From Rhodovarius sp. (GTDB lineage Bacteria > Pseudomonadota > Alphaproteobacteria > Acetobacterales > Acetobacteraceae): a DNA stretch of 48,832 nt. The DNA lies in the NCBI GenBank assembly GCA_025057055.1, contig JANWYF010000117.1, forward strand, positions 1 to 48,832, in the 5' to 3' direction. Both the position numbers and the translations under genes were made by a program. Positions 8,661 to 18,918 of the stretch are shown here, piece after piece (position 1 is the first letter of the stretch; each line of letters starts with the position of its first letter). The notes beneath the pieces are model-generated. The model was not told where the DNA came from. It did not search any database and saw only the letters and a program-made list of their open reading frames with translations.

Positions 8661-11158
8661 CCGCCCCAGCCCTGACGCCCATCGAAGCCGCCCTCGCCGG
8701 CCTCCTGCACGACGGCGGCAAGCTCGCCTAGCGCGCGCACCCGAACGAGGAGGCGCTGACCCGCGCCTATGCCGAGGCCGGGCGCGATCTGGCCGGCACG
8801 CAAAGCGCCATCCTGCCGGCGCGCGACGGCCGCTACACCCACAGGCATGCGCTGTGGAGCGACTACGCGCTGCTTGCCGCTGCGCAGGCCGGCGCCCGCT
8901 GGCCGAAGGAGCTGGACGGCGCCCGGCTGGAGGCGGTGGCCGTCCGCCACCACGCGCCGCGCCATGACGACGCTGGCGACTGGATCCTCGCCGAGGCCGA
9001 CCGCCTTGCCTTTGGCCTGGAGCGCAAGCAGCGGGACGAGGAGGCGGAGGCGAAGGGGCTGCCGCTGCGCGAGGTGGAGCTCGCGGCCCTGCTGCCCGCG
9101 CTCGACATCGGGCACGGCGTGCCGGCCGGACCGGCGCGGCGCCATCCCGCCGAGGAACTCTCGCCCGGGGCCCTGCTCCCGCGGGCCGGCAGCCCGGGCG
9201 ACCAGCCGCGGCGCTACGGGCTGCTGTGGGATGCGTGGCTCAGGCGGTATGTCGGCATCGCGCGGCATGGCCTCTCGCCACGCCGCCTGGAGCAGGCGAT
9301 CCTCGGCCTGTCGGAGCGGCTGCTGTGGGCGGTGCCCTCCTCCACGGTGGACCAGCCGGACGTGTCGCTGCACGACCACGCCCGCGCCGTCGCCGCGATC
9401 GCCGCGTGCCTCGCCGCGTGGCATCGCGCGCACGGGGCCTTCGACGTCGCCGCCGTGAAGGATCGGGCGGCGCCCAAGTTCCGTCTCGCCGCCCTCGATC
9501 TCTCCGGCATCCAGAACGCGCTGTTCCGCCTCGCCGGCCGGGGCGGGGCGAGCCGCATCCTGCGCGCGCGGTCCTTCCTGATGGGCCAGACGGTGGAGGC
9601 GGCGCTGCATCTGCTGCTCGATCGGCTCGATCTGCCCTTCTCCACCGTGCTGATCCATGCCGGGGGCAAGGCCGAACTGCTGCTGCCCGACCTGCCCGAC
9701 CTCCCGGCGCGGCTCGAGGAGATGCGGGAGGTGCTCGATCGCTGGATGGTCGAACACTGGCAGGGCGATCTGGCGCTGATCCTCGCCGCGGGCCCGGCCT
9801 TCGCCGCCGGCGAGTTCCTCCGCAAGGGCAAGGCGGGCGAGGTGGCGGAGGGCTATCGCCGGCAGCGCGACAGCCTGGCGCAGGCGCTGGAGGAGGCGAA
9901 GCTCCGTCCCTTCTCTGCGTGGCGCGGCGGCGGAGGACATGTCGGGACCGGGGTGATCCCCGCCCCCTTCGATCAGGCTGACGGCGCCTGCGCGACCTGC
10001 GGCGTTCGCCCCGCGGTACGGCAGGGGGCCCTGGACCGGCAGCGCCGCTGCCATGTCTGCGATGCCGCCCATGCCCTCGGCCAGGCGCTGCCCAAGGCCG
10101 AGGGCCATGCGCTGCTGGCGGCCGGCAGCGGCGCGGATGCGCCGGCAGCCCTGCCAAGCGGGATCAAGCTCGCACCCTGGCCTGCCCGCGGCCCGGAGGC
10201 CCTGAGCGTCACGAGCGCCGTGGCGGAGGAGGCGGGCAGCGCCGTCTATCGCCCCTTCGCCCATGTGCCCCGGATCACGGATCCCGAGGACAGGCGCTAC
10301 CGCCACGCGGGTGTGGGCGCCGAGGATGGCGAGACCTTCGCCCGCGGCGACCTGATGACCTTCGGCCACATCGGTGCGGAGGCGCTGGAGGAGTGGGACG
10401 GGGGGATCCTCGGGCGCGACCTGCTCGGCATCGTGAAGGCGGATGTGGACCGCCTCGGCGCCATCTTCGCGAGAGGCCTCGGGACGGACCGTTCCCCGGC
10501 GCGGGTCGCGCAGCTCTCCCGCCTCTTGGACGCCTATTTCGGCGAGCGCCTGCCCCGGCTGCTGCACCAGGAGTTTCCCGCGACCTACACCGTCTATGCC
10601 GGCGGCGACGACCTGCTGCTGGTCGCGCCGTGGCGCTTCGCGCTCCCGCTCGCGCACAGGCTGCGGGAGGATTTCGGGGCCTTCGCCGGCGGCAACCCGA
10701 ATCTCACCCTCTCGGCCGGGGTCGCCTTCGTGCATCCGAAACAGCCGCTGGCCCTGGCGGTGGCGGAGGCGGAGGAGGCCCTCTCCGCCGCCAAGGCCGA
10801 TGGACGCAACCGCTGCGGCGTGTTCGGCCGCACGCTCCCCTGGGAGCGGCTGAAGACGACGCTTGATCTCGCCGACCGGCTGACGGCCGCGGTGCGCGCC
10901 GGGCACCTGCCGCCGACCTTCCTGCACGGCATGGCGTGGTTCGCCGCGCGCCGCGCGCGCGCCGAGGCAGGCGAGACGCGCGCCGCGGATTGGAACGCCA
11001 AGTGGCGATACCAGGAGGCGCGGCTTCTGGACCGGGCAAAGCCGGAGGCGCGGGCGGAGCTGGAGCCGCTGCTGTCGGCCGCGCTGCCGCCGCCCCGGCA
11101 GGCCGCCGAGGCCGAGGCCGAGATCGCGATCACCATCGCGTCGTGGCGCAACCGCTAG
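8657..11158 (+). CDS. cas10: Cas10/Csm1, type III-A large subunit, interrupted by an amber codon
   Basis: Read from GTG 8657 (overlapping the previous stop), the frame encodes 833 residues with one in-frame TAG at 8729-8731, codon 25. The N-terminal HD domain begins LLHDGGKLA, then the stop stands where this family normally has Gln (the usual pattern is HDxGK-x-x-QRA), then RAHPNEEALT, THRHALWSDY, RHHAPRHDD and ILAEADRLAFGLER. A CAG to TAG change explains it. Downstream are a zinc-ribbon pair (C445/C448 and C465/C468), palm residue Asp596 in VKADVDRLG, and the cyclase motif GGDD at 649-652. The cOA-synthesis site therefore looks intact. A product reinitiated at GTG 8936 (740 aa) would lack the HD metal site and hence DNase activity. 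Confidence 0.9.
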
Positions 11159-11177: not shown

Positions 11178-11738
11178 ATGTCTGGGTTTCGGAACAACAA
11201 CATGCCGGGCCGGGGCAGCTCCCCCCGGCCTGCCGGCGGAGGGAGGCAGCAGGGCCCCGGGCGCCAGCAGCCGGGCGGGCCGGGCGGCGGTGGAGCCGGC
11301 GGCGACGAGCGTGGCAGGCTGGAGGACCTTCTGAGGCCGCCTGCGCAGCCCGTGCGCTATTTCTCGGCCAATGACCCTGCCGCTCCCGACAGCACCCTGT
11401 TCGGGAAGCAGGCGGAGGAGGTGGCAAGGAAGCTCGCCACCGTGCCCGCCAGCCAGCTCCGCCGCTTCTACGCCGAGGTGATGGCGCTGAAGCGCCGCGC
11501 CGAGCTCACCGCGATCAGCGATGCGGAGGTCGTCGCGCAGCTGACGCTGCTGCGCGCCAAGGCGGCCTACACCTGGGGGCGGCAGACCCGCTACCCGGGC
11601 GAACTCGTCGCCTTCTTCACCCGCCATGCCCACAGCGTGACGTCGAAGAAGGATTTCCTGTGCGGCTTCCAGCCGCATTTCGAGGCCGTGATGGCCTTCC
11701 ACAAGGTGTTCGAGGACAAGAGGGGGAACGCGGCATGA
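11178..11738 (+). CDS. csm2: Csm2 small subunit with a long Gly/Arg/Gln-rich leader
   Basis: 186-aa protein. The C-terminal 130 residues are a helical Csm2 domain: ALFGKQ-like TLFGKQAEEVARKL, VPASQLRRFYAEVMALKRR, LLRAKAAYTWGRQ and FCGFQ-type LCGFQPHFEAVMAFHKVFE. Csm2 lines the Csm backbone and contacts target RNA. Residues 1-50 are low-complexity, rich in Gly, Arg, Pro and Gln (for example GGGRQQGPGRQQPGG), making the protein longer than ordinary Csm2 (about 120-150 aa). The ATG at 11178 follows a strong AGGAGAGAGG ribosome site, so the leader is probably translated. The stop overlaps the csm3 start (ATGA). Confidence 0.9.
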   Translation: MSGFRNNNMPGRGSSPRPAGGGRQQGPGRQQPGGPGGGGAGGDERGRLEDLLRPPAQPVRYFSANDPAAPDSTLFGKQAEEVARKLATVPASQLRRFYAEVMALKRRAELTAISDAEVVAQLTLLRAKAAYTWGRQTRYPGELVAFFTRHAHSVTSKKDFLCGFQPHFEAVMAFHKVFEDKRGNAA

Positions 11739-12514
11739 CCGACATCCGCGAAACGGGCCGCGTGCGCCTCGGCGCGCGGCTTCGGCTGAAGTCCGGCCTG
11801 CACATCGGCGCCGGGAAGGACAGCGTGGAGATCGGCGGGATCGACAACCCGCTGATCAAGCACCCCTTCACCGGCGAACCCTACATCCCGGGCTCCTCGC
11901 TCAAGGGCAAGCTGCGCTTCCTGCTGGAGTGGGCCTTCGGAAAGATCCGCGGGGACGGACAGGCGTGGGGGTTCAACGGCGACCAGCCTGCCGACGCCGA
12001 CGACCCGGTGCTGCGCATCTTCGGCAATGCGCTGAAGGACTGGAAAGGCGGACCGACCCGGCTGCTCATGCGCGACGCGCCGCTCTGCGAGGAGGACCGG
12101 AACCGTTACCTCGCGGCGCCCGACAGCTTCTTCGAGGAGAAGACCGAAGTGCTGATCGACCGGATCAGCGGCAAGGCGCATGACAGGGTCGGCCCGCGCC
12201 AGACGGAACGCGTCCCCGCCGGCGTCGCCTTCGATTTCGCCTGCGTCTTCCGCCTCTACGACACCGGCGATGGCGGCGCGCGCGATCTCGCCTGCCTCAA
12301 CTGGCTGATCCAGGGCCTCGCCCTGCTGGAGGAGGATGCGCTCGGCGGTTCGGGCTCCCGCGGCTACGGGCGGATCGCCTTCGAGGAACTCGTGCTCCAT
12401 GCGCCGGAGCGGGAGGCGGTCGCGCTCGACAACCGCTTCCGCGGCCACCGGTTCGATCGCGCCCGGCCCCCGGCCATCCTGCGGGCGGAGGAGATCCTGG
12501 GGGTGCCGGCCTGA
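11735..12514 (+). CDS. csm3: Csm3 backbone RAMP, target-RNA nuclease subunit
   Basis: 259-aa RAMP protein. The N-terminal segment contains SGLHIGAGKD, then GGIDNPLIKHPFTGEPYIPG and SSLKGKLRFLLEW, which is the Csm3/Cmr4 signature. Asp37 in the GIDNP loop corresponds to the catalytic Asp that cuts target RNA at 6-nt intervals in characterised Csm3 proteins, and it is intact. The second RAMP half ends with a Gly-rich LGGSGSRGYGRIAFEEL. Several copies of this subunit would polymerise along the crRNA. The start is set by overlap with the csm2 stop; the end overlaps the csm4 ATG by one base (TGATG). Confidence 0.95.
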   Translation: MTDIRETGRVRLGARLRLKSGLHIGAGKDSVEIGGIDNPLIKHPFTGEPYIPGSSLKGKLRFLLEWAFGKIRGDGQAWGFNGDQPADADDPVLRIFGNALKDWKGGPTRLLMRDAPLCEEDRNRYLAAPDSFFEEKTEVLIDRISGKAHDRVGPRQTERVPAGVAFDFACVFRLYDTGDGGARDLACLNWLIQGLALLEEDALGGSGSRGYGRIAFEELVLHAPEREAVALDNRFRGHRFDRARPPAILRAEEILGVPA

Positions 12515-13476
12515 TGGAACTGCGCCGCTTCCGCCTGCGGCTCGACGTGCTCTCGCCCTTCGCCACACCGCCGGGATCGGGCACGCTGTTCGGGCATCTC
12601 TGCTGGGCCAAGCGGGCGCGCGAGGGGCGCGAGGCCCTGAGAGCCTGGCTGCGGCGCCTGCCCGAGGAGCCGGTGGCGATCTCCGATCTGTTGCCGGCCG
12701 ACCATCTGCCGCGCCCGCTGCTGGCGCCGCCGCCTGGCGGGGAGGCAAGGCAGCCGGAGGACGCGAAGCAGATCAAGAAGCGCCGCTACCTGCCGCTTTC
12801 CGCATGGCGGCGGCTGCGCGCGGCGGCGGACGGGCGGACGCTCGAGGGCCTCCTACGGGAGGCGAAGGGGGACCCGCCCTTCCTCGCGCCGAGGCGCCTC
12901 GCGCACAACCGCATCGACCGCGCCAGCGGCAAGACGCCCGAGGCAGGCGGCGGGGGGCTGTGGTTCGCCGAGGAATTCTGGCCCACGCCGAGGCACCGCG
13001 GCGCACGGCACATCGAGGCGGATCTCTATGTCCGGAGCGCGCTGCCGGCGCGAGCCGTGGAAGACCTGCTCGCCCATGTCGCGGAAACGGGCTTCGGCGC
13101 GGACGCCGGGCTCGGGCGCGGGCGCTTCCATCTCGACGGCAGCGAGCCGGCGGGATGGCTCGACGACGCGCCGCGCGGCGCCGGCGAGGCGCGTATGTTG
13201 TCGCTGTCGCAGGGGGTGGTGACGGAGAACATGCGCGCGGCCCGCTGGCGCCGCTTCGTGCTGTTCGGCAAGCTCGGGCGCGAGATGGTGGCCGAAGGCA
13301 GGCGCCCGTGGAAGCTGCCATTGGTGCTGGCGGAGGCCGGGGCGACCTTCGCCCCCGACGGGCCCGGCCCTTTCGGCGCCTGGGTGACCGGGCTGCATCA
13401 GGATGACGATCCCTCCGACCCGGTCGGCCACAATGCCTGGCACCTCGCCATCCCCTACACGGAGGCGCGCGCATGA
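12514..13476 (+). CDS. csm4: Csm4 RAMP (5'-handle-end subunit)
   Basis: 320-aa protein beginning MELRRFRLRLDVLSPFATPP, then SGTLFGHLCWAKR, the Csm4-type first RAMP half. A mid-region segment RHIEADLYVRSALPARAVED and the Gly-rich TGFGADAGLGRGRFHLDG form the second RAMP half. In known Csm complexes Csm4 caps the crRNA 5' handle and docks Cas10. The identification rests on RAMP features, length and invariant gene order between csm3 and csm5. The start overlaps csm3 by one base and the stop overlaps the csm5 ATG, showing translational coupling along the operon. Confidence 0.9.
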   Translation: MELRRFRLRLDVLSPFATPPGSGTLFGHLCWAKRAREGREALRAWLRRLPEEPVAISDLLPADHLPRPLLAPPPGGEARQPEDAKQIKKRRYLPLSAWRRLRAAADGRTLEGLLREAKGDPPFLAPRRLAHNRIDRASGKTPEAGGGGLWFAEEFWPTPRHRGARHIEADLYVRSALPARAVEDLLAHVAETGFGADAGLGRGRFHLDGSEPAGWLDDAPRGAGEARMLSLSQGVVTENMRAARWRRFVLFGKLGREMVAEGRRPWKLPLVLAEAGATFAPDGPGPFGAWVTGLHQDDDPSDPVGHNAWHLAIPYTEARA

Positions 13477-14705
13477 ATGTCTATGCCGGACCGGAGAGGG
13501 TCATCACCCGCGTGACGCTTCGCCTCGTGCCGCTGACGCCGATCCATATCGGCGACGGCACGGAATGGCGGCCGGACGAATATCTGATCGAGGACGGGCG
13601 GGCGGCATACGACGACGAGAGCACGGATGAACCCGGCTCCGCCGCGGCGCATGCCCCTGCCACGCTCTGCCGCTTCGACCAGCAGGCGGCGATGCGGGCG
13701 ATGACCCCGACGCAGCGGACGGCCTTCGCCACGGCCCTGGATCGCGGCAAGCTGGTGGAGGCGGCGAAGGTGCTGCGCGCGGCCGGGCGGAGCGACATCC
13801 TCGAGCGCATTCCCCTCTCGGCGGCATCCAGGAGCGATCTGGCACGGGCGATGGAGGAACCGCTCCGCGCCGGGGCGGTGAAGCCGTTCATCCGCAGCGG
13901 CGGACGGCCCTATATCCCCGGCTCCTCCATCAAGGGGGCGTTCCGCACGGCGCTTGCCTCGGCCGCATTGCCGCGCGGCAGCCGCGACGATGCCCGCTGG
14001 ACGCACGACTTCGCCTTGACCGATGCCTTCGGGCTCGAGCAGGGAAAGACCGAGACCGATCCCTTGCGCTTCCTCTCGGTTTCGGACGCCGCGCTGCCGG
14101 ATGGCGCCACGCTGGTCGACAAGGCGGAGGTGATGAAGCGTGGCGGCGCTGCGCCATCCGGGGCGAAGGGGGGCGGCGGAATCCAGATGCACTACGAGCG
14201 GACGCGGTCCCTGAGCGAGGACCCGCAGCTGGCCCCGGCCTTCTCCGTCACCCTCGCCGTGGACGGGCGGGCCGCCGGACCGGACGGCGTCAGGCGGCCC
14301 GAGGCGCGCTTCGATCTTTGGCGCGCCTTGCGCGTCACGCGCGATTTCCACGTGAAGCTGTTCAATACGGAGGCCAAGACGTTCTTCGAGGGGCCGACAA
14401 AGGCGCTGCTGACGCAACGTCTGCAGGGCCATTCGGGCCCCGGGAAGGAGCCGCCCTTCACGCAGGCGGGATGGACGCCGGGTTTCCTGCTCCTCCGCCT
14501 CGGCCGCTTCGGGCATTTCGAAAGCAAGTCCCTCGAAGGCGTCCGACGCGGGCAGTTCCTGCAGGCGAGGAATCCCGCCGACAAGATCCGCCCGCCGAAC
14601 GCCTGGGGCGTGACCCGCACCGTCACGCGCGATACCAAGGGCAACCCGATCCCCTTCGGCTGGGTGATCGGCTGGGTGGCGAAGGAGGAACGGCCGCCGT
14701 GCTGA
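13473..14705 (+). CDS. csm5: Csm5 RAMP (crRNA 3'-end subunit)
   Basis: 410-aa RAMP protein. LRLVPLTPIHIGDGTEWRP followed by EYLIEDG is the usual Csm5 opening. PYIPGSSIKGAFRTALASA near residue 150 is the RAMP Gly-rich/helix element, and FLLLRLGRFGHFESKSLEG occurs near the C terminus. Csm5 caps the crRNA 3' end of the Csm complex and helps its maturation. It starts within the csm4 stop (ATGA) and its stop overlaps the GTG of the following Csm6-like gene. Length is within the family's normal range. Confidence 0.92.
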   Translation: MNVYAGPERVITRVTLRLVPLTPIHIGDGTEWRPDEYLIEDGRAAYDDESTDEPGSAAAHAPATLCRFDQQAAMRAMTPTQRTAFATALDRGKLVEAAKVLRAAGRSDILERIPLSAASRSDLARAMEEPLRAGAVKPFIRSGGRPYIPGSSIKGAFRTALASAALPRGSRDDARWTHDFALTDAFGLEQGKTETDPLRFLSVSDAALPDGATLVDKAEVMKRGGAAPSGAKGGGGIQMHYERTRSLSEDPQLAPAFSVTLAVDGRAAGPDGVRRPEARFDLWRALRVTRDFHVKLFNTEAKTFFEGPTKALLTQRLQGHSGPGKEPPFTQAGWTPGFLLLRLGRFGHFESKSLEGVRRGQFLQARNPADKIRPPNAWGVTRTVTRDTKGNPIPFGWVIGWVAKEERPPC

Positions 14706-15967
14706 TCCTCGTCGCCTCCGTCGGGGGCTCGGCTGACCCGATCGCCTCCGCCATCGCGGCGAGGCGGCCAGATCGCGTGGTTTTCCTCGCCTCCGAACCG
14801 CGCGGGGAGAAGCCCGGCTCCGTCGGGGAGATTCCCGGTATCCTCCAGGCGGCCCAGCGCCCGAAGCAGGCGCACGACATCGTCCGTCTGGCGGATCCGG
14901 ATGATCCGGAAGCGGACTTCCTCGCGCTGCGCGAGGCGGTCGGGCGGCTGCGCGCCGATCATCCCGGCGCGCGGCTGCTGTTCGACTACACGGGCGGCAC
15001 GAAATCCATGACGTCCGCCGTCTTCCAATGCGCCCTGGCCATCGCCGGGGCGGAACTGCAGTTCATGGCCGGGCGGCGGGAGGATTTGCGAACCGTCAAG
15101 CCCGGCACCGAACGGCCGACCGCCATCCCCGTCGCATGGCTGCTGGCGGAACGGCAGGAGGCGCGGCTGCGCGCCGCGTGGAAGGCCTTCGACTACGCCG
15201 CCGCAGCGGCTGGCTACCGGCGGCTGCATGAGGATCTCGGCGGCGACGAGAAGGCGCCCGAGGAGCTTCGCCAGCGCCTCGCTGATCTTGCCGCGATCTC
15301 CGAGGCCTTCGAGCTTTGGGATCGCTTCCGGCACGCCGATGCCGCGGCGATCCTCGCCGCCGTGGAGCCGAGGGTGCGCGGGCTCCGGCCGTTCCGCGAG
15401 CAGGCCGAGGCCTGCACCCGGCAGACGCCGGCGCGCATCCTCGACCTCTGGCGCAATGCCGAGCGCTGCGCCGCCCGTGGCCGGCACGATGACGCGGTGG
15501 CGCGGCTCTATCGCCTCGTCGAGTGGATCGCGCAGTGGCGGCTTCACGAGAAGCACGGCCTCGACGCATCGAGGATGGACTGGAACCGTCTTTCCCAGAA
15601 GCAGATCGCGGCCGCCGGGCTTTCGGAGCAGACGGGGAAGAAGACCCTCTCCGGCTCGGTGCAGGCTTGGAAGCTGGTTGCCACAGTGGAGCCGGAGGGT
15701 GTCGTCTCCGAGTTCCTGTCGGCTCCCTTCTCCGCCAAGGATCGGAAGAAGACCGGCGAGGGACGGCTGCGCGACATGCTCGACCTCAGGAACCACTCCA
15801 TCCTGGCGCACGGGGAGCGCCCGCTCGGCGAGGCGGAGTGGGAGAAGTGGATGGTGTTCGCGGACGAACTCCACCGGCGCGTACTCTCGCCGCTGCTGCA
15901 GGAGGCCGGCGTGTCGGGGCGGTTGCCCCCGCAGCTGCCCAGGGATCCGGCCGAGCTCGGCCTGTGA
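14699..15967 (+). CDS. Csm6-like CARF-HEPN ribonuclease (Cas02710 family)
   Basis: 422-aa protein from GTG 14699, overlapping the csm5 stop. The N-terminal CARF domain opens LILVASVGGSADPIASAI and has the ligand-loop sequence FDYTGGTKSMTSAV at about residues 95-108, characteristic of the TIGR02710/Cas02710 family. The C-terminal half is helical and contains R364-NHSILA-H371, an R-x6-H motif fitting the HEPN ribonuclease active site. The expected role is a cOA-activated, non-specific RNase that adds collateral defence to the Csm complex. It is the last gene of the effector operon; 115 nt separate it from cas2. Start and motif are intact, so the effector arm looks functional even though cas10 carries a stop. 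Confidence 0.85.
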   Translation: MLILVASVGGSADPIASAIAARRPDRVVFLASEPRGEKPGSVGEIPGILQAAQRPKQAHDIVRLADPDDPEADFLALREAVGRLRADHPGARLLFDYTGGTKSMTSAVFQCALAIAGAELQFMAGRREDLRTVKPGTERPTAIPVAWLLAERQEARLRAAWKAFDYAAAAAGYRRLHEDLGGDEKAPEELRQRLADLAAISEAFELWDRFRHADAAAILAAVEPRVRGLRPFREQAEACTRQTPARILDLWRNAERCAARGRHDDAVARLYRLVEWIAQWRLHEKHGLDASRMDWNRLSQKQIAAAGLSEQTGKKTLSGSVQAWKLVATVEPEGVVSEFLSAPFSAKDRKKTGEGRLRDMLDLRNHSILAHGERPLGEAEWEKWMVFADELHRRVLSPLLQEAGVSGRLPPQLPRDPAELGL

Positions 15968-16082: not shown

Positions 16083-16367
16083 ATGACGCAGCGCGCCCTC
16101 CACCTCGTGGCCTATGACGTCGCCCATCCGCGGCGCCTTGCGCGCGCCCTGAAGGCCACGCGCGCCCATGCCACCGGCGGGCAGAAGTCGGCGCATGAGT
16201 GCTGGCTGACCGGAACGGAGCGCAAGGCGCTGGTGGGCCGCCTGCGCGCCCTGCTGCATCCGCGGGCCGATCGGATGCTGTCCATCCGGCTAGATCCGCG
16301 GCTGCCGCCGCGGCTGCTCGGCATCGCCGTGCCGCCCGAGCCGCCCGGATTCAGGATCATCGGCTGA
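16083..16367 (+). CDS. cas2: Cas2 (first copy)
   Basis: 94-aa ferredoxin-fold protein. HLVAYDVAHPRRLARALK gives the first strand with the conserved Asp12 and first helix. The middle reads GGQKSAHECWLTGTERKALV, the second strand and helix, and HPRADRMLSIRLDPR follows as usual. Cas2 dimers bridge Cas1 dimers in the spacer-integration complex. The ATG at 16083 gives a normal Cas2 length, and an upstream in-frame extension has no family similarity. It leads the adaptation unit, 4 nt before cas1. It differs clearly from the second Cas2 at 18117, so this is not a recent duplication. Confidence 0.88.
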   Translation: MTQRALHLVAYDVAHPRRLARALKATRAHATGGQKSAHECWLTGTERKALVGRLRALLHPRADRMLSIRLDPRLPPRLLGIAVPPEPPGFRIIG

Positions 16368-16371
16368 TGTC

Positions 16372-17348
16372 ATGACGACGCTCTACATCGACCGCCGCGA
16401 TGCGCTGATCGAGGCGACGGACGGCGCGCTCCTCGTGCGCGGGGCCGAGGGCACGCTTGCCCGCGCGCCGCTCGCGCCGCTCGAGCGCGTGGTGCTGCGG
16501 GGCCCCGCCAGCGTGACCACCGGCGCCATCGCCGCCATCACGGCGCAGGGGGCGTCGCTGCTCGTGCTGTCCGGCCGCCACGGGAGGCTTGCGGGCATCA
16601 TGAGCGGCGCCGCGCATGCGGATGCCGCGATCCGGCTCGGCCAGTTCCGCCTCGCGCTCGACCCTGCCGCGCGCGACGCGATCGGGCGCCTCGTGCTTCG
16701 CCACAAGCTGCTCGGCCAGCACAGGCTCCTGGCCGAGGGGCTGCGGCTGCGGCCGGGCCAGCGCCGGCTGCTCCTGCGCGGGCAGGCGGCGATTGCGGAC
16801 GCGCTGGCGAGGCTGCGCGAGGCCGAGGCCCTGTCCGCGGCGCAGATGATGGGCATCGAGGGCGCCGCGGCGGCGGCGTACTTCGAGGCCTTCGGCGCGC
16901 TGCTGCCGCCCTCGGCCGGCTTCGTCGGGCGAAACCGCCGTCCGCCGCGCGATCCGGCGAATGCGCTGCTGTCGTTCGCCTACACCCTCGCGCATCTGGA
17001 AGCGGTGACGGCGGCGCAGCGCGCCGGCCTCGACCCCGCCGTCGGCTTCCTCCACGGCCTGTTTCCCGGCCGCGAGAGCCTCGCCTGCGACCTTGTCGAG
17101 CCTCTGCGCCCGTTCTGCGAGCGGCTTGTCTGGCGCCTCTCGCCGAGGAGACGCTGCGCGCGGCGCATTTCACCCGGGACGGGGAGGCCTGTCTGCTCGG
17201 CAAGGCCGGGCGGCTCGCGTTCTACGCCGCCTGGGAGGAGGCGGCAGAGCCGCTTCGCCGGAAGCTCCGCCGGGGCCTCAGGCCGCTGGTGCGGGCCGCG
17301 AGGGCGGCTTCCGCTGGCCTGTTTTCCGAGCGAGACGGCGATGCTTGA
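16372..17348 (+). pseudogene. cas1: Cas1 integrase, active site intact but frameshifted near the C terminus
   Basis: The first 255 residues are a normal Cas1: an N-terminal beta-domain (MTTLYIDRRDALIEATDG onward) and a helical domain with metal ligands E163 (GIEGAAAAAYF), H228 (GFLHG), D240 and E243 (CDLVEPLRP). After VWRL (about 17138) the frame breaks. The expected tail, LAEETLRAAHFTRDGE then CLLGKAGRLAFYAAWEE and RRKLRRGLRPLVRAAR, is in the next frame and ends at TGA 17346-17348. One missing base within CGCCTCTCGCC restores a 325-aa protein of typical Cas1 size. As written, the frame instead runs into the following gene and predicts a false 582-aa fusion. It is either a sequencing error or a real inactivation. 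Confidence 0.85.
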
Positions 17349-18120
17349 GGCGCTGCATCTGGACGCGGCGGAGCGGCCTGTCGCGGTTCTTCTCGAAGGG
17401 CCGGCGCTTCGGCTGCGCCGGGCCGGCCTGCCGGACGTCTTCGCCCCGCTGCCGCGGCTCGCGCGTGTTGTCGTCCATGGGCCGCGTGTGCAGTGGCGCA
17501 CCGAGGCGCTGCTGGCCTGTGCGGAGGCTGGCGTGCCGGTGCTGCTGCTCGGCGGGCGCAGCGACCTGCTGGCGGTGGTCGTGCCCGCGCGGCCACCTGC
17601 GCAGCGGCGGAGCCTGGCCGCGGCGCTGGATGCAGCTGCTGCATTGCCTGGTTTCCGGGCCATGCTCGAGAACTTCTGCCGCGCCGAGGTGCGCCGGGCC
17701 TGCCTCGCCGCGCTGCGGGCCGAGGGACGCCAGCCGGAGGGGCTGGACCTGCGCCCGGCGATGCTCGCGCGGTTCTGGCTCGGGTCGGCGGAAGCGGAGG
17801 GCCCTGTGGGCAGGGCATGGCGGGTGCTGCGCGGCCTCGGCGCAGCCGCCGTCGCCGACGGCATGGCCCGCCGGGGTGTGGGGCCGGAGTTCCTGGCCCG
17901 CCGCAGCGGCTGTTTCCCGCTGGCGGAGATGCTAGGGGAAGCCCTTGCGATCCATTTCCTTCCGGCGGTGGGCCGGCTGGCACCGGAGCTCGCTGGCGCG
18001 TCCGAGGAGATGGCGCGCCGCCGCATCATCCGGCTGTTCGATGGGGCGGACCCGAACGGCGAGCGTGACCGGATGCTCGCGCGGCTTGCGCTTCGCCTGG
18101 CGGGGGAGGTCTTGGCATGA
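17341..18120 (+). CDS. degenerate Cas1-like protein
   Basis: 259-aa protein starting at ATG 17341, eight bases inside the repaired end of cas1. Its N-terminal 80 residues follow the Cas1 beta-domain almost step by step: VAVLLEGPALRLRRAG, PLPRLARVVVHGPRVQW and AEAGVPVLLLGGRSDLLAVV. The helical half includes E153-G at the place of the Cas1 catalytic Glu and PEFLARRSGCFPLAEML at the place of GFLHGLFPGRESLACDL. In a manual alignment the metal-binding His becomes Ala186 and the Asp becomes Met197; E200 may remain. It also lacks the basic C-terminal tail of true Cas1. I infer an inactive partner of Cas1 in a heteromeric adaptation complex. The stop overlaps the second cas2 start (ATGA). Confidence 0.7.
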   Translation: MLEALHLDAAERPVAVLLEGPALRLRRAGLPDVFAPLPRLARVVVHGPRVQWRTEALLACAEAGVPVLLLGGRSDLLAVVVPARPPAQRRSLAAALDAAAALPGFRAMLENFCRAEVRRACLAALRAEGRQPEGLDLRPAMLARFWLGSAEAEGPVGRAWRVLRGLGAAAVADGMARRGVGPEFLARRSGCFPLAEMLGEALAIHFLPAVGRLAPELAGASEEMARRRIIRLFDGADPNGERDRMLARLALRLAGEVLA

Positions 18121-18464
18121 GCCGCCGCCGGACATGGCTGATCGGGTACGACATCACGTCGCCGCGCCGCCTGCGGCGGGTGGCGCGGTTGCTCGAGCGC
18201 CACGCCTACCGGCTGCAATATTCCTTGTTCGTAGGCTGCTGGACAGCGAGCGAGTTCGATGCGGTCTGGGGGCAGGTGGCGGCGCTGATCCACCCGCGCC
18301 GAGACGACGTTCGCGCGTGGCCGGTGGCGGAGAACGCGGAGTTGGAGCTTTGGGGGAGGAACTGGCCGGAGGACATCGTTATAGGGGGCTTGGGGTCGGT
18401 GCCCTTGCAGCGGCTGCTCCGGGCTGGTGTGATTGAAGATGACACGAAGGACGGAGGAGGATAG
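18117..18464 (+). CDS. cas2: Cas2 (second, divergent copy)
   Basis: 115-aa protein. TWLIGYDITSPRRLRRVARL carries the conserved Asp12 of Cas2, followed by YRLQYSLFVGCWTASEFDAV and LIHPRRDDVRAWPV, the second strand and helix of the fold. The C-terminal 30 residues (LWGRNWPEDIVIGGLG onward) extend beyond a minimal Cas2 and could carry contacts to Cas1. It is translationally coupled to the degenerate Cas1-like gene, so this pair is probably a partner set parallel to cas2-cas1. It is the last gene of the unit; a gene-poor stretch with a CRISPR-repeat-like sequence follows. Confidence 0.87.
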   Translation: MSRRRTWLIGYDITSPRRLRRVARLLERHAYRLQYSLFVGCWTASEFDAVWGQVAALIHPRRDDVRAWPVAENAELELWGRNWPEDIVIGGLGSVPLQRLLRAGVIEDDTKDGGG

Positions 18465-18918
18465 ATCCGGAGACAGGCACGGGGATTGCGACCGCTGCCC
18501 GTAAACCATTGTTTGCAAAGGGTTTCTCGGAGGGGAGGGTTTTTCAGCAGACCCGATTTTCAGGGGGTCAAAACGCCGGCCGCCAGGCAAGGGGCGCCCG
18601 GCATCCCAGTTTCAGCCAAACGGATCATCAACCGGTCGGGAACAGGGCGGTCGCAGGCTGCAGCCGCCTGCCTCCCCCCGCCCGTCTGAACCCTGGGCCC
18701 TCACCACCTCCGGCAGCCGCCAGACGGGCCACGCCGCCCAGGATCCGGGGGTGTCCCGCCGCCCCGCAGCCTGCCTGCCGGCGGCCCAGGCCCATCCCGC
18801 GCCCGCCCCCGCCGCGGTGAAGGCAAGCCGGCCGCAGCCCGACAGCTGGGGGCGCGCCCGCCGGCCCCCGTGACCCCGCCGGTCGGCCGGGCCTCTCGGC
18901 TGCGGCCCGGCTTGGGGC
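18465..18918. other. 454-nt gene-free stretch after the second cas2
   Basis: No credible gene. The left part (about 18500-18640) is visibly richer in A/T than its surroundings and holds the repeat-like units listed separately. The right part (18650-18918) is very GC-rich and without recognised features. The minus-strand DUF1194 gene ends at 18919, so both flanking genes point into this region. Confidence 0.6.
18539..18643. CRISPR. possible CRISPR remnant: one repeat-like unit plus a degenerate second unit
   Basis: Unit 1 (18539-18574) is exactly 36 nt, begins GTTTTTCAGCAG and ends GGGTCAAAAC. Its ends are inverted (GTTTT/AAAAC) and it holds an internal GACCC/GGGTC stem, all typical of a CRISPR repeat with a crRNA handle. 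After 34 nt (18575-18608), a usual spacer length, unit 2 (18609-18643) is 35 nt, begins GTTTCAGC, contains GAT, TCA and GGTC at matching places and ends AAC. I count about 23 of 37 aligned positions identical. A decayed last repeat would look like this. With only two units, one poor, chance is quite possible. Confidence 0.3.

Follow-up and report, generated by a model that had tools for sequence, protein, structure and literature searches.

What would a CRISPR (clustered regularly interspaced short palindromic repeats) adaptation module do with a second Cas1 that seems to lack the catalytic site of the first, and with a second Cas2 at its side? The question is raised by a 48.8 kb stretch of Rhodovarius sp. 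DNA (contig C163 of a 3.07-Mb draft genome of 251 contigs, 97.5% complete), referred to below as the window, in which a type III-A effector operon is followed by two cas2 genes and two genes of the cas1 kind. The four genes, in the order cas2A-cas1-cas1′-cas2B, make up a single adaptation module that belongs to type III CRISPR systems. The module is a real, conserved variant, marked by a dead second Cas1 (Cas1′) and by two Cas2 lineages, for which a well-motivated mechanism can be proposed. An earlier note on this DNA had read its layout as cas2-cas1-cas1-like-cas2, and all four genes were confirmed using Pfam and PADLOC profiles:

16083..16367, + strand: cas2A, the first Cas2, with the motif GGQKS..EC and the YD kept (Pfam PF09827, E 3.6e-8; motifs by eye)
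16372..17348, + strand: cas1, canonical, broken by a 1-nucleotide deletion (Pfam PF01867, E 7e-59, residues 8-260 of the stretch scanned)
17341..18120, + strand: cas1′, the second, diverged Cas1 of 259 residues, its His and Asp sites occupied by A186 and M197 (Pfam Cas1, E 0.0029; PADLOC PDLC01185, E 5.5e-6)
18117..18464, + strand: cas2B, the second Cas2, with QYS and DDVR motifs, overlapping cas1′ by 4 nucleotides (Pfam PF09827, E 2.2e-13)

Whether the product of cas1′ is a Cas1 at all is not settled by a simple sequence match, the window protein scoring 17.3 bits against the Pfam Cas1 profile (PF01867), under the cut-off of 22.3. All 13 members of the Cas1′ group match that profile at E values up to 0.01 (best 2.2e-7), and all 13 that were scanned match PDLC01185, their best PADLOC family by E value, which carries the label “Cas1, diverged variant, second in the loci”. 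The place agrees with the label, as cas1′ comes after cas1 in every one of the 16 loci. The Cas1′ family is already known to PADLOC as a profile, for which the database gives the profile and label only, and is not previously unseen. When the Cas1′ of the window's taxonomic family (8 rows) were aligned by hhalign with those of two other families (5 rows), a probability of 99.6 was obtained (E 3e-23, 248 columns); judged from these profiles, they are one protein family. Among the PDB sequences, none belonging to Cas1′ was found, the best matches being Cas1 beta-domains at E 1.7e-4 to 0.009.

The fold was followed by AlphaFold2, using an alignment of six sequences. The five models of Cas1′ had mean predicted local distance difference test (pLDDT) values of 85.8, 82.8, 68.8, 68.4 and 67.3, and the best of them a predicted template modelling score (pTM) of 0.64. 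The best 50 of 386 Foldseek matches (E up to 10), starting from E 4e-7, were all Cas1, Cas1-Cas2 or casposase entries by title, counting 3god and the “Cas-DNA” titles, which we take to be of the Cas1 type. With VIA-align, 78-82 residues of the beta-domain superpose on Cas1 at 1.7-2.3 Å, and 160 residues of the helical domain (90-254) on chain 8flj_B (Cas1-Cas2/3) at 3.0 Å (Z 12.8), i.e., the N-terminal beta-domain and the helical domain of the predicted structure each match Cas1 when taken separately, as had been proposed in the earlier note for this 259-residue protein. Whole-chain alignments gave root-mean-square deviations of 13-18 Å, which probably reflect a different angle between the domains.

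The integrase metal site, made up of Glu, His and Asp, is kept in full in the Cas1 of the 15 other loci (15/15) and was not found in the protein encoded at 17341-18120. His occupies its site in none of 14 full-length Cas1′ (it is A186 in the window), and Asp is present in six of the 14 (L018, L029, L030, L031, L034 and L060; it is M197 in the window). None of the 14 keeps all metal ligands, whereas homologues that keep them had been named in the earlier note as fatal to its reading, and the locus is not a simple cas1 duplication with an active site in both copies. Within residues 86-181 the column most often acidic is position 136, with 11 of the 14, and the sole helical-domain column that is acidic in all 14, position 234, has as its apparent counterpart in Cas1 the WE of the C-terminal helix, which is no metal ligand (paired by eye). 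The replacement of H228 and D240 by A186 and M197 had been proposed from a manual alignment. Both residues are there, and their register is supported by eye and by the structural match; it is favoured because the lengths are nearly equal to those in E. coli Cas1 (model residues 90-258 on 97-279), counted by the ligand numbers of that enzyme. An alternative register, which would lay a “GLG” near Cas1′ residue 165 on the GIEG motif of Cas1, is disfavoured by the same lengths. What is not universal is the loss of Asp, in view of the six proteins that keep it. As far as the predicted structure and these columns tell, Cas1′ is a Cas1 by fold and not an integrase by site.

The two domains have fared differently in the two proteins. 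When the eight rows of the window's class are compared with the five from the other two families, the mean identity of Cas1 is 30% for the beta-domain and 46% for the helical, catalytic domain, and the corresponding values for Cas1′ are 30% and 17%. Measured in this way, the beta-domain of Cas1′ is as well conserved as that of the enzyme, and the former catalytic domain has been released. The beta-domain of Cas1 carries the contact of the Cas1 dimer. The ratio of nonsynonymous to synonymous substitution rates (dN/dS) of cas1′ is 0.28-0.44 in five pairs, which indicates purifying selection and therefore that the gene is kept.

How widely the module occurs was followed through genome collections; genomes, contigs and loci are given G, C and L numbers where they have to be told apart. 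With the window Cas1′ as query, clear matches were found in eight of the 397 genomes of its taxonomic family, its own included; Caldovatus sediminis, Caldovatus aquaticus, Crenalkalicoccus roseus and Elioraea thermophila are the named genomes that carry the module. One module-bearing metagenome-assembled genome (L040, G065) is titled Terriglobia, yet the genome set places it in the window's family. Searches with PDLC01185 and with a 13-row alignment added six genomes from two other families of the phylum, in which the module is present in 3/74 and 3/3 genomes. In the class sample it was found in two of 385 genomes (its own, and G903 from one more family), and in the phylum sample in seven of 398, again with its own included. 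In total, 16 loci from 15 genomes were read, and the earlier note's suggestion to look for the same gene order elsewhere was rewarded: cas2A-cas1-cas1′-cas2B lies on one strand in all 14 loci that are uncut by contig ends, and the two cut loci agree as far as they can be read. As 16 loci in 15 genomes share the order, the layout is not due to chance. With the start codons assigned here, cas1 runs into cas1′ at 15 of the 16 loci, L033 having a gap.

The effector genes beside the module are not always the same. Within the window's family, III-A csm genes are found in the loci with upstream sequence (L011-L017, two of them cut), and L018 begins at cas2A. Elsewhere the neighbours are of type III-B: Cas10b, Cmr1, Cas6 and a CARF gene in L030, Cmr4, Cmr5, Cmr6 and a CARF-HEPN gene in L033, and Cmr6 in L034. 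In L029, the effector scan, which covered L029, L030, L033 and L034 of these families, found only a CARF-HEPN gene. In G903 (L060, 1-11430), at least 160 CRISPR repeats are followed by the four-gene module, and no match to the csm queries of the window was found in the 19.9 kb read, its other genes lying outside the scan. The module thus adjoins III-A genes, III-B genes, or no effector found nearby. By eye, two GTPase-like genes with GKSS motifs were seen behind the CRISPR array of L029 (3423-5006), and in L032 (3331-4023) cas2A has as its neighbour a gene with the motif GKST.

Does Cas1′ keep company with one kind of Cas1? A Cas1 match at E up to 1e-10 is present in 51 of the 397 genomes of the window's family. 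Eight of these have an intact Cas1 at least 56% identical to that of Crenalkalicoccus (itself among them), and they are the same eight that have a clear Cas1′. In 42 others, with 38% identity or less, no Cas1′ match was found using one protein as query, from which very distant ones could escape. The remaining genome, G093, was kept outside this 8/8 count; its Cas1 has 50% identity, only broken pieces of cas2A and cas1 were found (G093:C90, 5249-6271, L092), and no match to cas1′ or cas2B was seen in the 9 kb read. These pieces are probably a decayed remnant of this clade. Also dropped were G107 (E 7.5e-4 over 98 residues with one internal stop, in a region, L019, that matched no module protein) and G661, in which L035 is a canonical cas1-cas2 pair without cas1′. 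The same was done with weak matches of 19-45 bits over about 60-160 residues; those in G661:C86, G559, G467 and G511 lie in canonical cas1, and further ones of 19-45 bits in G661:C208, G483, G567 and G670 were likewise left out of the counts. No Cas1′ match was found in viral contigs, nor in plasmids with three Cas1′ queries.

The two Cas2 are as constant as the gene order. Scored against the window's own proteins, the cas2 ahead of cas1 is of the A-type in 16 of 16 loci and the cas2 behind cas1′ of the B-type in 14 of 14; the window row is thereby a trivial self-match. The Cas2 profile (PF09827) is matched by both window proteins, and the YD motif is seen by eye in 16 Cas2A and 14 Cas2B. In a tree of 31 Cas2 the 16 A rows and the 14 B rows each form one group (95/98; 0/500 shuffles as low), and the lone outside Cas2 branches off between the two groups, nearer to A, so Cas2A and Cas2B need not be sisters. 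Sisters or not, both lineages are, on the evidence of this tree, older than the spread of the module. The description of the second cas2 as the divergent one does not agree with the Pfam scores, which are 33.9 bits for the first and 50.6 for the second.

A function for a Cas1 without its metal site is suggested by what has been described for E. coli, where each Cas1 dimer of the Cas1-Cas2 complex is asymmetric, with the threading of the 3′ end and catalysis assigned to one protomer, and contact with Cas2 and the building of the complex to the other (PMC10011333, in the part available). In E. coli and in P. aeruginosa, according to the excerpts at hand, one Cas1 protein fills both the catalytic and the non-catalytic role, i.e., Cas1a and Cas1b of E. 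coli come from one gene, whereas here two genes would presumably share the work. In the proposed mechanism Cas1 is the catalytic integrase of the module, and Cas1′ an old Cas1 paralogue that has lost the metal site but retains the fold of Cas1, most of all in the beta-domain. The two would form a heterodimer, with Cas1′ permanently in the non-catalytic, Cas2-contacting seat (as Cas1b in E. coli), and a pair of these heterodimers would hold between them a Cas2 dimer, which is plausibly Cas2A-Cas2B. With two different Cas2 at its centre the complex would lose its twofold symmetry, which could make it easier to distinguish the two ends of a prespacer that has no protospacer-adjacent motif (PAM). 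The Cas1-Cas1′ heterodimer and its role are the most likely arrangement; the case for a Cas2 heterodimer and for its effect on orientation is weaker.

A gene able to serve only in the inactive seat is the simplest reading of Cas1′. The probability that Cas1′ is a dedicated non-catalytic protomer, and as such the partner of Cas1 within the integrase, may be put at roughly 0.6, the heterodimer-on-Cas2 model included. Of the earlier note's reading, the Cas1 fold, the lost metal site, the four-gene order, which proved to be conserved, and the idea of a structural Cas1 are supported. We hold more tentatively, and with some doubt, that an obligately asymmetric integrase of four polypeptides (a catalytic Cas1, a dead Cas1 and two Cas2) might replace the cue given by PAM and Cas4 and distinguish the prespacer ends. 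Type III adaptation, where it has been tested to date, does not depend on a PAM and requires Cas1 and Cas2 only (PMC9048733, as far as its available text goes); that asymmetry of the complex might stand in for a cue from the PAM in type III is speculation. In searches for protospacers, one array had no match against phages, and another only chance-like matches of 24-36 nucleotides at E 0.03-0.4.

Several observations weigh against the dedicated protomer. Ordinary Cas1-Cas2 works without such a subunit, and Cas1′ could be an accessory; the Asp is retained in the six Cas1′ named above, and the position of the Glu could not be fixed. A very distant Cas1′ may have been missed in the 42 genomes that were searched with a single protein. 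The whole-chain TM-scores (template modelling scores) to the Cas1′ model are only 0.27-0.43 among the best 50 of the 386 Foldseek matches, and VIA-align Z values below about 13 can arise unspecifically in helical bundles. By profile alignment alone the helical domain had no significant match to Cas1 (probabilities below 1%), so that its homology rests on structure, and this is a prediction from six sequences with a pTM of 0.64, three of the five models having a pLDDT near 68.

The pairing of the genes, cas2A with cas1 and cas1′ with cas2B, together with the two separate Cas2 lineages, would also fit a Cas1′-Cas2B complex that is separate from the integrase, a non-catalytic accessory for the capture or protection of prespacers, for the marking of the leader or for the regulation of Cas1-Cas2A. 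No Cas4 match was found in any of the ten operon stretches scanned with Pfam, so a helper role may be open to it. Such an accessory does not itself explain why the beta-domain of Cas1′ is conserved while the DNA-facing helical domain has drifted, and it seems unlikely to us, although it deserves to be kept in mind. The Asp kept in six of 14, and the acidic residue 136 in 11 of 14, could be taken as signs that other residues still give Cas1′ an activity as a nuclease or integrase; the only helical position that is acidic throughout, 234, pairs by eye with the non-ligand WE of Cas1, and we consider such an activity very improbable. The lost ligands and the fast evolution of the helical domain could finally be those of a decaying or selfish cas1 duplicate that has no role. 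This is hardly credible, and is largely contradicted by a gene that is full-length in the 14 uncut loci, has a dN/dS of 0.28-0.44, has a constant position across families from different classes, next to III-A as well as III-B genes, and is accompanied by separate Cas2 partners throughout.

The window's own copy of the module has a further peculiarity. In a DNA alignment with L011, L012 and L013, a 1-nucleotide deletion at 17134/17135 is the sole internal indel of its cas1. The N-terminal 254 residues, including E163, H228 and D240, are in one frame, and the last ~71 codons are in another, which ends with the stop at 17346-17348. The full protein has no single open frame, through either a true mutation or an assembly error. 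At the same site, cas1 reads through in a single frame in eight other loci of the window's family, among them L011, which is contig C187 of the window's own draft genome and provides it with a second, intact cas1. As the frame after the deletion meets no stop and runs into cas1′, an open reading frame of 582 residues results (16372-18120), which consists of Cas1 (1-254), about 69 out-of-frame residues and Cas1′. A Cas1-Cas1′ fusion was considered and rejected, this frame being a by-product of the deletion that none of the 15 other loci has, and programmed frameshifting in cas1 was rejected as well, the relatives using one frame at that site. Judged from the assembled sequence, the window's cas1 is broken or mis-assembled and cannot make a normal Cas1, so that its description as the intact type was not borne out despite the presence of E163, H228 and D240; as assembled, the window copy is probably unable to adapt.

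A single CRISPR repeat and no spacers are found where four relatives carry arrays of 36, 49, 66 and 79 repeats right behind cas2B. The absent array needs no broken cas1, because L013 of Crenalkalicoccus roseus pairs an intact cas1 with one degenerate repeat. A single degenerate repeat in place of an array, with all four genes present, is seen in L013 (14066-14200) and in L030 (10895-10921). Contig C49 of the same draft genome begins with another leader-like stretch and an array (L061), and contig C187 ends within its first repeat. The deletion in cas1 and the lone repeat would be consistent with a dead adaptation site, and the intact cas1 on C187 with a supply of Cas1 in trans. The single indel and a collapsed array can both be products of a draft assembly, and cas1′ and the cas2 genes of the window have an ordinary dN/dS of 0.16-0.31. 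We give the dead site or the supply in trans a little less than an even chance; either would concern the window copy and not the family, and is compatible with a dedicated non-catalytic Cas1′. The same genome encodes yet a third Cas1, which is distant (35% identity) and accompanied by a Cas2 (G000:C48, L093, 328-1625, minus strand), in a 667-residue open frame that could be a Cas4-Cas1 fusion; this pair suggests a second CRISPR type in the genome.

Upstream of the module, the + strand of the window (G+C 67-76% per 2 kb) has the order cas10, csm2, csm3, csm4, csm5 and a Csm6-like CARF-HEPN gene, and Cas10/Csm1 together with Csm2, Csm4 and Csm5, all detected by family profiles, makes this a type III-A CRISPR-Cas locus. 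No match to Rfam was found. The flanking features are:

8936..11158, + strand: cas10/csm1 (NCBIfam TIGR02578, E 3.6e-131)
11178..11738, + strand: csm2 (Pfam PF03750, E 4.9e-18)
11738..12514, + strand: csm3, start approximate (assigned from its position and from matches in five relatives, whose csm operons hold genes of 74-79% identity)
12514..13476, + strand: csm4 (NCBIfam TIGR01903, E 3e-15)
13473..14705, + strand: csm5 (NCBIfam TIGR01899, E 5.4e-13)
14693..15967, + strand: csm6/csx1-type CARF-HEPN gene, start approximate (TIGR02710, E 4.6e-53; PADLOC CARF_HEPN, E 7e-91)
18539..18574, + strand: a single 36-nucleotide CRISPR repeat, without spacers, perfect and directly behind cas2B

With canonical Cas1 (PF01867), Cas1′ would share the fold of both domains, as predicted, and differs in having no His site, in often having lost the Asp and in a helical domain that is shorter and evolves fast. 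The likeness to the asymmetric Cas1a/Cas1b dimer of E. coli is that one protomer catalyses and the other contacts Cas2 (PMC10011333, available part). “Two copies of cas1/cas2” have been mentioned at a III-A locus in a methanotroph and in Acidithiobacillus ferrivorans YL15 (PMC6119699); these are likened to the module by description only, the accessible portion of that paper giving no comparison or function. An Antarctic soil contig, given as cas2-cas1-cas1-RT-csm3-csm3-csm3-cas10 (PMC11742911), has adjacent cas1 genes in a type III-like locus, as here, by its gene list only; it differs by the presence of a reverse transcriptase (RT) and of one listed cas2, and no function is given in the part of the source at hand. 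In the open-licence literature, no published function, partner or residue analysis for a second or inactive Cas1 was found; a description elsewhere is possible.

If the jobs of the two Cas1 seats are split between two genes, as the dedicated protomer would have it, each seat could be mutated separately. A natural split into an active and an inactive protomer would also offer a route to recording tools with controlled orientation. For the type III systems themselves, such a split would allow a direct test of how, without a PAM, the orientation and the length of the spacers are set.

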